A stretch of 64,000 bases of DNA, from positions 4,526,001 to 4,590,000 of the forward strand of contig NZ_AP024660.1 of assembly GCF_019977395.1 (NCBI RefSeq), given 5' to 3'. Made by a program: the position numbers and the translations under genes. Positions 36,379-40,099 of the stretch are shown here, piece after piece. Origin of the DNA: Arthrobacter sp. NicSoilC5 (lineage in GTDB: Bacteria; Actinomycetota; Actinomycetes; Actinomycetales; Micrococcaceae). Below the pieces are notes generated by a model that was not told the DNA's origin, made no database searches, and was given only the letters and a program-made list of their open reading frames with translations. Every line of letters begins with the position of its first letter. Within the stretch, counting starts at the first letter, position 1.

Positions 36379-39297
36379 GTGGCCAAGGTCCGCGTACATG
36401 AGCTCGCCAAAGAGCTCGGTATAACTTCCAAAGATGCAGTGACAAAACTGCAGGAACTGGGCGAATTCGTTCGCTCCGCCTCGTCAACTATCGAGGCCCC
36501 CGTTGTGCGTAAACTGCGCAACGCCTTCCCCGACGCTGCCGCAAAGTCGGCGGCTCCGGCCGCAGCGCCCGCCGCTGCCCCCAAGGCGCCCGCTCCCGCA
36601 GCAGGCAACCGTCCTTCAGCCCCGGCTCCCGGCCCGGCTGCGCCCAAGGCTCCGGCCCCCAAGGCTGAGGCCCCGGCTCCGGCCGCCCCCGCCGAGCCCG
36701 CTGCCAAGGAAGCTGCACCGGCAGCGCCGGCTCCCGCCGCGCCTGCCGCCCCCGCAGCACCGTCTGCGGGTGCTCCTTCCACGGGTGCCAAGCCCGGTGC
36801 ACGCCCGGCCCCCAAGGCCGAGACCCCGGCTCCTTCCGCCCGTCCGGGTGGATCCACACCGGGTGCCTCCGGCCCCCGTCCCGGCGGACCCCGTCCGGGC
36901 AACAACCCCTTCGCCACTTCCCAGGGCATGCCCCGGGGCCGCGGCGGAGACGGTGAGCGCGCCCCGCGCCCCGGCAACAACCCGTTTGCCACCTCGCAGG
37001 GCATGCCCCGTCCCGGCGGCAGCCGCACCGACGGCGACCGTCCCGGTGGCCCGCGCCCCGCAGCAGGTGCAGGCGGACCGCGTCCCGGTGGGCCGCGTCC
37101 CGCAGCCGGTGCCGGTGGGCCCCGCCCCGCCGCAGGTGCAGGCGGACCCCGTCCGGGTGCACCGCGTCCCGGTGGTCCCCGTCCCACGCCCGGCATGATG
37201 CCCAACCGCACTGAGCGTCCCGCACCCGCAGGTGCAGGCCGTCCCGGTGGCGGCCGCGGTCCCGGACGCCCCGGTGGCGCTCCCGGCACCGGTGGTCCCG
37301 GTGGCGGCGGCGGTGCTCCCGCCGGCGGCGGTTTCGGCAAGGGCGGCCGCGGCCGCGGCGGTACCCAGGGTGCCTTCGGCAAGGGCGGCGCAGGCCGTGG
37401 CAAGCAGCGCAAGTCCAAGCGCGCCAAGCGCCAGGAACTTGAGCAGATGAGTGCCCCGTCGCTGGGTGGCGTGAGCGTACCCCGCGGCGACGGCAACACC
37501 GTCATCCGGCTTCGCCGTGGCTCGTCCATCACGGACTTCGCCGACAAGATCGAGGCAAACCCCGCCGCACTGGTCACCGTGCTGTTCCACCTCGGTGAAA
37601 TGGCCACGGCCACCCAGTCGCTGGACGAAGAGACCTTCGCCCTGCTCGGCGAGGAACTGGGCTACAAGCTCCAGGTTGTCTCGCCGGAGGACGAGGAGCG
37701 CGAGCTGCTCTCCGGCTTCGACATCGACTTCGACGCTGAGCTCGAAGCCGAAGGCGACGAAGACCTTGAGGCACGTCCTCCAGTAGTCACCGTCATGGGC
37801 CACGTCGACCACGGTAAGACCCGACTGCTCGATGCCATCCGCAAGTCCGACGTCATGGCCGGCGAACACGGCGGCATCACCCAGCACATCGGTGCCTACC
37901 AGGTCACGCACAACCATGAAGGCACCGACCGCAAGATCACCTTCATCGATACCCCGGGCCACGAGGCGTTCACCGCCATGCGTGCCCGTGGTGCCAAGGT
38001 CACCGACATCGCCATCCTGGTGGTCGCAGCGGATGACGGCGTCATGCCGCAGACCGTTGAGGCCCTCAACCACGCCCAGGCGGCCAATGTGCCGATCGTC
38101 GTGGCCGTGAACAAGATCGACAAGGAAGGCGCCAACCCGGACAAGGTCCGCGGCCAGCTGACCGAGTACGGCCTGGTTCCCGAGGAATACGGTGGCGACA
38201 CCATGTTCGTCGAGGTCTCTGCCCGCCAGAACCTTAACATCGACGAGCTGCTTGAGGCCGTCCTGCTCACCGCGGACGCTGCCCTGGACATGCGCGCCAA
38301 CCCGAACAAGGACGCCCGCGGCATCGCGATCGAAGCCAACCTGGACAAGGGCCGCGGTGCTGTTGCCACCGTCCTGGTCCAGTCCGGTACCCTGCGCGTC
38401 GGCGACACCATCGTGGCAGGCACGGCCCACGGCCGCGTCCGTGCGATGTTCGACGACGACGGCAGCGCCCTGACCGAGGCCGGCCCGTCCCGCCCCGTCC
38501 AGGTGCTGGGTCTGTCCAACGTGCCGCGCGCCGGCGACACCTTCTTCGTGACCGCTGACGAGCGCACCGCCCGCCAGATCGCCGAGAAGCGTGAAGCAGC
38601 CGACCGCAACGCCGCCCTGGCCAAGCGCCGCAAGCGCATCAGCCTGGAAGACTTCGACCAGGCCGTCGCCGAAGGGAAGATCGACACCCTCAACCTCATC
38701 CTCAAGGGTGACGTGTCCGGTGCCGTGGAAGCCCTCGAAGACGCGCTGCTCAAGATCGACGTCGGCGAAGGCGTGCAGCTGCGCGTCATCCACCGCGGTG
38801 TGGGTGCCATCACGCAGAACGACGTCAACCTGGCAACGGTCGACTCCGCCGTCATCATCGGCTTCAACGTCAAGCCCGCCGAGCGGGTTGCCGAACTGGC
38901 AGACCGCGAAGGCGTCGACATGCGCTTCTACTCCGTCATCTACGCAGCAATCGATGACATCGAAGCAGCGCTCAAGGGCATGCTCAAGCCGGAATACGAA
39001 GAATTCCAGCTCGGCACCGCCGAGGTCCGCGAAGTCTTCCGCTCCTCCAAGTTCGGAAACATCGCCGGCTCGATCGTCCGCTCGGGCATCATCCGCCGCA
39101 ACACCAAGGCGCGCGTCAGCCGCGACGGCAAGATCATCGGCGACAACCTCACCATCGAGACGCTCAAGCGCTTCAAGGACGACGCCACCGAGGTCCGCAC
39201 GGACTTCGAATGTGGTATCGGTCTTGGGTCGTACAACGACATCACCGAAGGTGACATCATCGAGACCTTCGAGATGCGCGAGAAGCCGCGCGTCTAG
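36379..39297 (+). CDS. infB: Translation initiation factor IF-2
   Basis: A 972-residue IF-2. A small N-terminal IF2 domain ([21 protein letters not shown]) is followed by a very long Pro/Ala/Gly/Arg-rich region (about 50-345) with repeated [13 protein letters not shown] and [13 protein letters not shown] units. The G domain has GHVDHGKT near residue 475, DTPGHEAF and NKID. Domains II, III and the C2 domain that binds fMet-tRNA follow. The GTG start is preceded by AGGAGAAAT. The linker is characteristic of high-GC actinobacteria. Confidence 0.97.
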
Positions 39298-39335
39298 TCT
39301 GGATCTGCCTGCGGGCGACTCAGCAGTGCAAAGGT

Positions 39336-39457
39336 GCGGGGCCGTTGGATTTTTCCGGCGGCCCCGCCCCTTCGCTGGGTGGCCTACGTCTTACGACGTC
39401 GGCCACCCAGCTCCGGCAGGCCCGATGCCACTCCCTGGCCGCCGGAAAAATCCAACG
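39336..39457. repeat. Nested inverted-repeat element between infB and rbfA
   Basis: A perfect 21-bp outer inverted repeat (39343-39363 with 39437-39457, CGTTGGATTTTTCCGGCGGCC and its complement, given by position) encloses a perfect 11-bp repeat (GCTGGGTGGCC 39374-39384, GGCCACCCAGC 39401-39411). That in turn encloses ACGTC-TTAC-GACGT (39386-39399). A competing 8-bp hairpin, GCGGGGCC (39336-39343) with GGCCCCGC (39360-39367), shares bases with the outer left arm, so both cannot form fully. It could be a regulatory RNA, a terminator or a MITE-like repeat. Confidence 0.8.
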
Positions 39458-39589
39458 CAGGTCCGTCGTGCACTCGCCACAGCGCGGGGCAGCCGGCCCC
39501 AGGTGCGTGGCAGATAACTGAAACGTCCGATCGCGGCCCCCGTGCCGCCGTCGTACGTCCCTAATTTTTTCTTCTTATAGGAGTTGTTC

Positions 39590-40099
39590 ATGGCTGATCC
39601 GGCACGTGCTGCCAAGTTGGCGCAGCGGATTAAGGTTGTTGTTGCTGAGGCTCTGGGCCGGAAGGTCAAGGATCCCCGGCTGGAGGGCATTACTGTTACT
39701 GATGCCCGCGTGACCAATGATCTGCAGCACGCCACTGTTTACTACACCGTCTTTGGCGACCAGGCTGTCCAGGCCGACGCTGCCAAGGGGCTTGAGAAGG
39801 CCAAGGGCGTGCTCCGGCAGGAGGTGGGCCGGAACATCACCGTACGCCTGACCCCCACCCTTGAGTTTGTGGCTGACCAGATTCCGGTGGTCGCGTCCAA
39901 CCTCGAAGAACTGCTCCGCGAGGCCAAGAGGCGCGACGCCGAGGTGGCCGCCCTTGCCGCCAATGCGCGGCACGCAGGCGACGCCGACCCGTACAAGTCG
40001 GACGCGTCCGCCGACGTGGACATCGACGAGGACGACTTCGACGAAGAGGACCTGGACCTCACCGACGACGAGGACCTCGACGAGGACGGCCACAAGTAA
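39590..40099 (+). CDS. rbfA: 30S ribosome-binding factor RbfA
   Basis: About 169 residues. The KH-like RbfA domain covers residues 1-115 (LAQRIKVVVAEALGRKVKDP, DLQHATVYYTVFGD, LTPTLEFVADQ). A very acidic tail (DIDEDDFDEEDLDLTDDED) ends the protein. It matures the 16S rRNA 5' end and aids cold growth in other bacteria. The ATG at 39590 has GGAG 6 bases before it, after a T-rich run. The first 40 codons favour T-ending codons, unlike neighbouring genes. Confidence 0.93.
   Translation: MADPARAAKLAQRIKVVVAEALGRKVKDPRLEGITVTDARVTNDLQHATVYYTVFGDQAVQADAAKGLEKAKGVLRQEVGRNITVRLTPTLEFVADQIPVVASNLEELLREAKRRDAEVAALAANARHAGDADPYKSDASADVDIDEDDFDEEDLDLTDDEDLDEDGHK

Follow-up and report, generated by a model that had tools for sequence, protein, structure and literature searches.

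A palindrome between infB and rbfA of Arthrobacter: evidence for a low-copy DNA element overlapping an RNA-like hairpin

The gap between infB and rbfA in Arthrobacter sp. NicSoilC5 contains a long, nested inverted repeat, and a competing hairpin overlaps its left edge. A first-pass annotation offered two readings of this arrangement: (i) a riboregulator or thermosensor of the downstream gene rbfA, or (ii) a MITE-like repeat inserted into the operon. Here, the repeat is described in a 64,000 nt window (the whole stretch of DNA analysed) and compared with its counterparts in related genomes.

In the window, the repeat lies on the plus strand between infB (translation initiation factor IF-2; positions 36379–39297, an ORF of 972 aa) and rbfA (ribosome-binding factor A; 39590–40099, an ORF with an ATG start and a TTG at 39584, upstream, that is likewise open); both gene names are carried over from the first-pass annotation. 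infB is the neighbour of rbfA in relatives too, and rbfA gives a single match per genome in 120 of 121 genus genomes. The element is bounded by two 21 nt arms (left, 39343–39363; right, 39437–39457) that are 100% complementary and separated by 73 nt. The core between them consists of an unpaired 5' strand (CCGCCCCTTC; 39364–39373), a variable, covarying inner hairpin (39374–39411), and an unpaired 3' strand (TCCGGCAGGCCCGATGCCACTCCC plus a junction base; 39412–39436) in which a small hairpin, GGC-CCGAT-GCC, can form (39419–39429). The two unpaired strands stand out in the alignment of copies and by their low substitution rate. The inner hairpin pairs 39374–39390 with 39395–39411 (17 nt at 94% complementarity, 11 and 5 bp flanking one mismatch), and so the perfect 21 bp stem enclosing stems of 11 and 5 bp, first read by eye, is borne out.

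RNA folding also recovers the 8 bp stem (39336–39343 with 39360–39367) that was said to compete with, and exclude, the outer stem. In the predicted fold it grows to 14 pairs, including two U-G wobbles (39336–39349 with 39354–39367). This hairpin, local to the 3' end of infB (39336–39367, plus strand), is seen with or without the element; the left arm overlaps the end of its 5' strand, its loop, and its 3' strand. Positions 39320–39480 fold as RNA at -99.2 kcal/mol (shuffled mean -62.9, z = -9.07; none of 200 shuffles equals it). That value belongs to the local fold, and forcing the outer stem gives -98.1, leaving the two folds of the window copy 1.1 kcal/mol apart. As single-stranded DNA (ssDNA), the best fold of either strand of this copy contains the outer stem.

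No Rfam family reaches its gathering score on the element, in agreement with the earlier impression of no recognisable RNA family; five sub-threshold matches in 39250–39650 are chance-like. Between 39200 and 39700, the plus strand holds no intrinsic terminator (a G+C-rich hairpin followed by a T run), and this candidate was rejected; the minus strand gives one weak 5 bp site (39468–39453, 0.4 expected). No sigma-70-like promoter was found on either strand of the same interval. The sole Rfam family above cut-off in the window is Actino-pnp RNA (RF01688; 49319–49397, plus strand, 55 bits).

The element belongs to a family. In its own genome, blast gave two further places besides infB-rbfA, and a covariance model built from the alignment of 33 distinct copies gave four matches, one of them weak; a high-copy repeat was rejected on this count. 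Blast returned matches in all 36 other genomes of the genus and in none of 22 outside it, and in 24 of 197 family genomes (9 of 32 genera). The covariance model, run with stricter filters at the cost of some weak matches, found the element in 59 of 61 genus genomes (0–8 matches per genome) and in 18 of the 197 family genomes (6 of 32 genera). A search of contigs from one genome per species for an exact 22-base core motif gave 116 stretches, all from Micrococcaceae: 72 Arthrobacter, 40 Pseudarthrobacter, three Paenarthrobacter, and one without a genus. Carriage by a mobile replicon was also considered; viral contigs gave no match to one degenerate 21-base pattern, and plasmids and phages none in a blastn search with 121 bases. 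A literature search, with subscription papers mostly beyond its reach, returned no description of the element.

Copies share one layout. CCGCCCCTWC forms the unpaired 5' strand and TYCGGCAGGCCCGATGCCACTCCC, or a sequence near it, the unpaired 3' strand; a variable hairpin stands between the two, and outer arms that are perfect or nearly so enclose the whole. The conservation of the loop motif is biased upward, the motif being demanded by the search pattern. The arms differ from site to site and from species to species; each site has its own arm sequence, and the family as a whole has none in common. No gene lies within the element, which today passes down mainly by inheritance at a few sites, some intergenic and some in frame in coding genes.

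The intergenic sites are infB-rbfA, rho-prfA and grpE-dnaJ; the coding sites, where copies are mostly in frame, are jetB, the gene of an E2 acyltransferase, a cysD-like gene, and an ABC permease gene. Several of these genes are identified by Pfam domains: DUF4194, DUF3375 and AAA_29 (jet genes), 2-oxoacid dehydrogenase acyltransferase with lipoyl and E3-binding domains (E2), a PAPS-reductase domain (cysD-like), BPD_transp_1 (permease), and Rho domains (rho). PADLOC reports JetA, JetB and JetC of Wadjet. The genes that we take to be prfA, grpE, dnaJ and cysD were named from their protein sequences.

Sites and orientations were counted in 156 loci with 163 motif matches, each assigned by the nearest reference gene. 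Since 116 of these loci (L266–L381) were chosen by the exact motif and 40 (L382–L421) were picked by hand from the covariance-model matches in the genus as lying outside infB-rbfA and rho-prfA, the counts are not unbiased frequencies. Five reference sites account for 156 of the 163 matches: infB-rbfA (47, all sense), rho-prfA (28, all sense), grpE-dnaJ (28 sense and 33 antisense), E2 (11, sense), and the cysD-like gene (6 sense and 3 antisense). The remaining seven comprise six within the open frame of the ABC permease and one (L364) on a locus with a grpE-dnaJ match. At grpE-dnaJ, 51 of 56 loci have one match (28 antisense, 23 sense), and five have a head-to-head pair.

The core is present at infB-rbfA in 88 of 108 readable genomes. 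The region upstream of rbfA was read in 110 of 120 genomes with rbfA; the core is absent in 20 of these, and two others are cut off by contig ends. The gap between the genes measures 77–151 bp without the core and has a median of 248 bp with it, and none of the 20 gaps lacking the core holds it in reverse. At rho-prfA, four of 40 distinct spacers are without a core (L212, L217, L228, L233), and in two of these (L228 and L233) arms very like those of filled alleles are closed by a 3–4 nt loop in its place. Several filled rho-prfA alleles contain apparent remnants of tandem copies; in another (L222, from genome G007), a run of N breaks the left part of the copy. A check for target-site duplications found possible empty alleles at jetB and rho-prfA, and these core-less alleles may be deletion products, with no proof of direction.

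The two alternative folds are not kept in balance across relatives. Among 68 of 76 sequences (eight with a short outer stem were dropped), the outer stem is the RNA optimum in 37, and is at least 5 kcal/mol worse in 11.

The stems covary: none of 500 shuffles reached the observed value. How the arms change was read from 34 disjoint nearest pairs of infB-rbfA spacers, with a mean distance of 0.026 in the 3' part of infB. From 107 distinct spacers, 76 fit a strict core pattern, 71 were kept, and 68 entered the pairs; the 31 outside the pattern have no core, contain a second module, meet contig ends, or carry a changed or shortened core (for example L104, L108 and L116). Between sister sequences, the unpaired strands change little (substitution rates of 0.068 for the 5' strand and 0.049 for the 3' strand), while the arms and inner hairpin change at 0.24–0.25 (hairpin, 0.244) and the spacer on both sides at 0.27–0.31.

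In the arm columns, 97 changes are two-sided and keep Watson-Crick pairing, 20 are one-sided, and 11 are two-sided of other kinds; if the two sides changed independently, about 29 two-sided changes would be expected. Of those 97, 90 fall in 16 pairs, at 5–7 of 14 columns each, so in these pairs a whole arm type has been replaced. In the other 18 pairs, 18 one-sided changes outnumber seven two-sided ones, which speaks against strong repair of the arms at fine scale. By type, 77 of the two-sided changes are transversions and 20 are transitions. In PMC8794818, G-U pairs are involved in 78.5% of the two-step compensatory changes of rRNA, and transitions make up 61.0% of the instantaneous ones; the paper also describes a replication template switching mechanism for RNA genes. 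The infB-rbfA paired changes, many at once and mostly transversions, look unlike RNA evolution. The two tests that the first-pass annotation had set, one of position and copy number and one of compensatory change, therefore do not decide between its readings, even though the position is conserved, copies are few, and paired changes occur.

Arm types do not follow the phylogeny. On a tree of the ends of infB and rbfA (at most 297 nt; SH-aLRT of at least 80 on 47 of 98 branches), arm type takes at least 28 changes (shuffled mean 30.7, minimum 27), which is no phylogenetic signal. Presence of the core follows the same tree better, with eight changes (shuffled mean 17, minimum 14) in a data set where one sequence, L015, is mislabelled as having none despite its core. 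The flanking spacer itself differs by 27–31% between sister pairs, and recombination between strains could thus equally replace the arms.

A single transition in a Watson-Crick pair produces either G-U or A-C, and RNA tolerates G-U; selection on RNA pairing should therefore leave an excess of G-U. Mispairs were counted over distinct arm pairs, excluding the junction base beside the core, and the counts describe related sequences rather than independent events. In the outer stem, G-U, A-C, other and Watson-Crick pairs number 4, 16, 11 and 608 at infB-rbfA (43 distinct arm pairs), 3, 1, 0 and 293 at rho-prfA (20), and 3, 8, 1 and 317 at the other sites (22). In the inner hairpin, G-U, A-C and other mispairs number 12, 20 and 27 at infB-rbfA, 7, 2 and 19 at rho-prfA, and 0, 4 and 17 elsewhere. 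rho-prfA leans to G-U on small numbers.

The local hairpin gives the opposite picture. In 65 distinct sequences with the core, it holds 96 G-U, 7 A-C, 71 other and 736 Watson-Crick pairs; in 16 distinct sequences from the set labelled as lacking the core, to which L015 (a core with the second module inside) was wrongly assigned, the numbers are 15, 0, 15 and 194. The same T-G columns recur in most local hairpins, making independent events few. G-U far above A-C is nonetheless the signature of RNA, and the local hairpin resembles a structured part of the sense RNA that is there whether or not the element is. By the same count, the long stem at infB-rbfA does not seem to behave like RNA, and the contrast within the same sequences is clear. 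In fourteen loci where the element is absent (L120, L123, L125–L129, L131, L134–L136, L138, L140, L141), the infB-rbfA gap of 77–78 bp contains a long hairpin with a T-G wobble, an apparent homologue of the local hairpin.

Base changes on both sides of a stem are usually accepted as proving that it functions as RNA. In this case, a simple count of G-U against A-C tells apart two stems in one short stretch, a caution for those who look for bacterial RNAs by covariance. Arms that show no preference for G-U, are replaced on both sides together, and do not follow the phylogeny point to pairing kept at the DNA level. We therefore lean, with slightly more confidence than doubt, towards two overlapping features: one is a hairpin in the RNA of the infB 3' end, the other a low-copy palindromic DNA element of Arthrobacter and close relatives, whose arms DNA events make and keep complementary.

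How might DNA events create the arms and hold them complementary? Most likely, replication would switch templates inside the hairpin, copying one flank inverted onto the other side, and recombination between alleles would probably spread the resulting arm types. The tips of the inner hairpin bear on the frequency of the first step: in the alignment of 33 copies they mostly keep one T-N-C orientation, which argues against frequent template switching, as this might invert the tips. The core, in turn, would be kept because some putative protein recognises it. That the core is strongly conserved, and that it always lies in sense at infB-rbfA and rho-prfA, suggests that something reads it; sense-only copies at these two sites are not what a passive DNA element predicts. 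At infB-rbfA, the mRNA probably carries the element as a passive hairpin rather than as a switch. The locus also offers a natural system for watching long palindromes get replaced.

The coding copies were examined for reading frame. For 24 of 26 matches, the core falls within the open frame of its gene: 10 of 11 in E2 (not L385), 8 of 9 in the cysD-like gene (not one of the two in L386), and 6 of 6 in the permease. Across these unrelated proteins, one peptide frame is kept. Sense copies encode PAPSP..RPDATP..AA or near (in the E2, cysD-like, permease and JetB frames), and antisense copies QGVASGLSEPRAGLIEDQ..GEGAGAA or near (in the cysD-like and JetB frames).

JetB was detected in 60 of 61 genomes, and 30 jetB loci (L236–L265) were read. 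In this Wadjet gene, the element sits at two places depending on the species, near the N-terminus (L236–L238) or in the acidic C-terminal tail (L240, L242, L254, L257, L258, L263). Two further genes have a core with the second module inside (L247, L248), and all 11 copies keep the frame, in sense orientation in L240 and L254 and in antisense in the other nine. Decayed copies are seen in L239 and L241. Tails without the element (L245, L249–L252) contain acidic codons and have no right arm, which suggests, without proof, that the right arm may be an inverse copy of the host flank. This idea is clouded by possible scars in other jetB loci: a left-arm-like stretch without a core (L238, L243, L246), a palindrome without a core (L244), and right-arm-like stretches only (L255, L264).

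Could the whole arrangement instead be a sense-strand riboregulator or RNA thermosensor of rbfA, with the outer stem and the local hairpin switching expression between them? Such a switch would account for the near-equal energies of the two folds in the window copy, the constant sense orientation at infB-rbfA and rho-prfA, the strongly conserved unpaired core with its covarying stems, and the conserved position before rbfA. The proposal is nevertheless not supported and is, in our judgement, improbable: the arms fail the G-U test that the local hairpin passes, the energies of the two folds do not stay balanced across relatives, the site is empty in 20 of 108 readable genomes, copies occur in both orientations at grpE-dnaJ and in frame within genes, and no Rfam family scores above cut-off. 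A near-constant unpaired middle flanked by paired arms that are swapped on both sides is also not what a tuned RNA switch looks like. An RNA from the other strand fares worse still. In a G-rich antisense transcript, the A-C mismatches of the arms would become G-U, and over all sites and both helices A-C does exceed G-U on the C-rich strand (51 to 29). That excess comes from infB-rbfA and the small set of other sites, whereas rho-prfA runs the opposite way in both helices, and the only promoter type scanned, sigma-70-like, is missing from both strands of 39200–39700. Weak and inconsistent across sites, an antisense RNA is very improbable.

Two further rivals remain at the level of DNA. Integron attC sites and the ends of IS200/IS605 elements have variable stems and unpaired bases that are read by an enzyme, and the present element might likewise be a folded ssDNA site of a recombinase or transposase, its stems free to vary. 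Conserved unpaired strands next to freely varying stems kept at the DNA level are the expected pattern; as ssDNA, the window copy forms the long stem on either strand, and two rho-prfA genomes carry a hairpin with very similar arms minus the core. Against this stand the few copies and recurrent sites, the lack of matches in the viral contigs, plasmids and phages searched, and the scarcity of the Y1 transposase family PF01797, which was found in one of the 61 genomes (the element is in 59 of the same 61) by a search that was positive in five of 14 control genomes. An ssDNA site of this kind is unlikely. We give about the same low credence to a bolder version, namely a new kind of element that resides at hairpin tips in DNA. 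A putative actinobacterial recombinase or nuclease would read its invariant unpaired core as folded ssDNA, and the arms would be gained, lost and exchanged whole, such that the clasp is the site's and the core the family's. A classical MITE, that is, the non-autonomous remnant of a DNA transposon with terminal inverted repeats, is quite improbable. The element is small and palindromic and occupies several non-homologous places, some inside genes, and to that extent the MITE-like reading of the first-pass annotation comes close; however, the arms differ by site, and by species at one site, leaving no shared terminal inverted repeats, and a genome has at most eight matches.

Among known systems, the best-supported likeness of the DNA element, which would overlie an older RNA hairpin of infB, is to the Rickettsia palindromic elements (RPE). 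RPE are also short palindromes that lie between genes and, in frame, inside them, and the Arthrobacter coding copies likewise keep one peptide frame across unrelated proteins. The likeness is one of description, and there are differences: the phylum is another, the arms are site-specific, and 0–8 matches per genome contrast with the 44 integrations given for one Rickettsia genome in PMC10969869. The Arthrobacter copies form a palindromic family outside Rickettsia, in frame in genes with one conserved peptide, including the Wadjet gene jetB.

Other comparisons are looser. Bacterial MITEs (RUP, NEMIS, ERIC and others) are, like the element, small, gene-less inverted-repeat DNA in intergenic and coding positions; unlike them, its copies have no common terminal inverted repeats, are few, and recur at the same sites across species. 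REP sequences are palindromic and partly arranged in head-to-head pairs, as at the five grpE-dnaJ loci, but the element is longer and not high-copy, and mobilisation by RAYT as a general agent was rejected given the near-absence of PF01797. With the template-switch hairpins in PMC8794818, it shares stems in which several pairs differ on both sides at once; those hairpins are stems of rRNA and other RNA genes, whereas the Arthrobacter stem is part of a multi-site element in which G-U is not favoured.

A different comparison concerns the unpaired bases. Integron attC sites combine variable stems with constrained unpaired bases and are active as folded ssDNA. The element resembles them in its variable stems and constrained unpaired bases and differs in that its core sequence is nearly invariant.

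The second module mentioned above is palindromic, has its own variable stem, and takes the place of the small hairpin GGC-CCGAT-GCC in 8 of 88 infB-rbfA copies. A second palindromic family, with the core CTCGCAAGCTCG and paired flanking bases (AAYNCTCGCAAGCTCGNNTYGG), was found in 17 of 31 genus genomes (a control pattern gave none). Its places include L023, L032, L062, L076, L081, L091, L100, L147 and 35 others, and it also occurs within the small hairpin of the present element.

Two details of individual copies complete the description. The tips of the inner hairpin (for example in L012, L024 and L026) often carry two GATC sites, as GATC-TNC-GATC or near; other copies have ACGTC or GTCC in place of the GATC pairs. 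Finally, two contigs (G019:C15 and G114:C77; loci L117 and L098) stop inside or near the element, as if assembly breaks at the palindrome.
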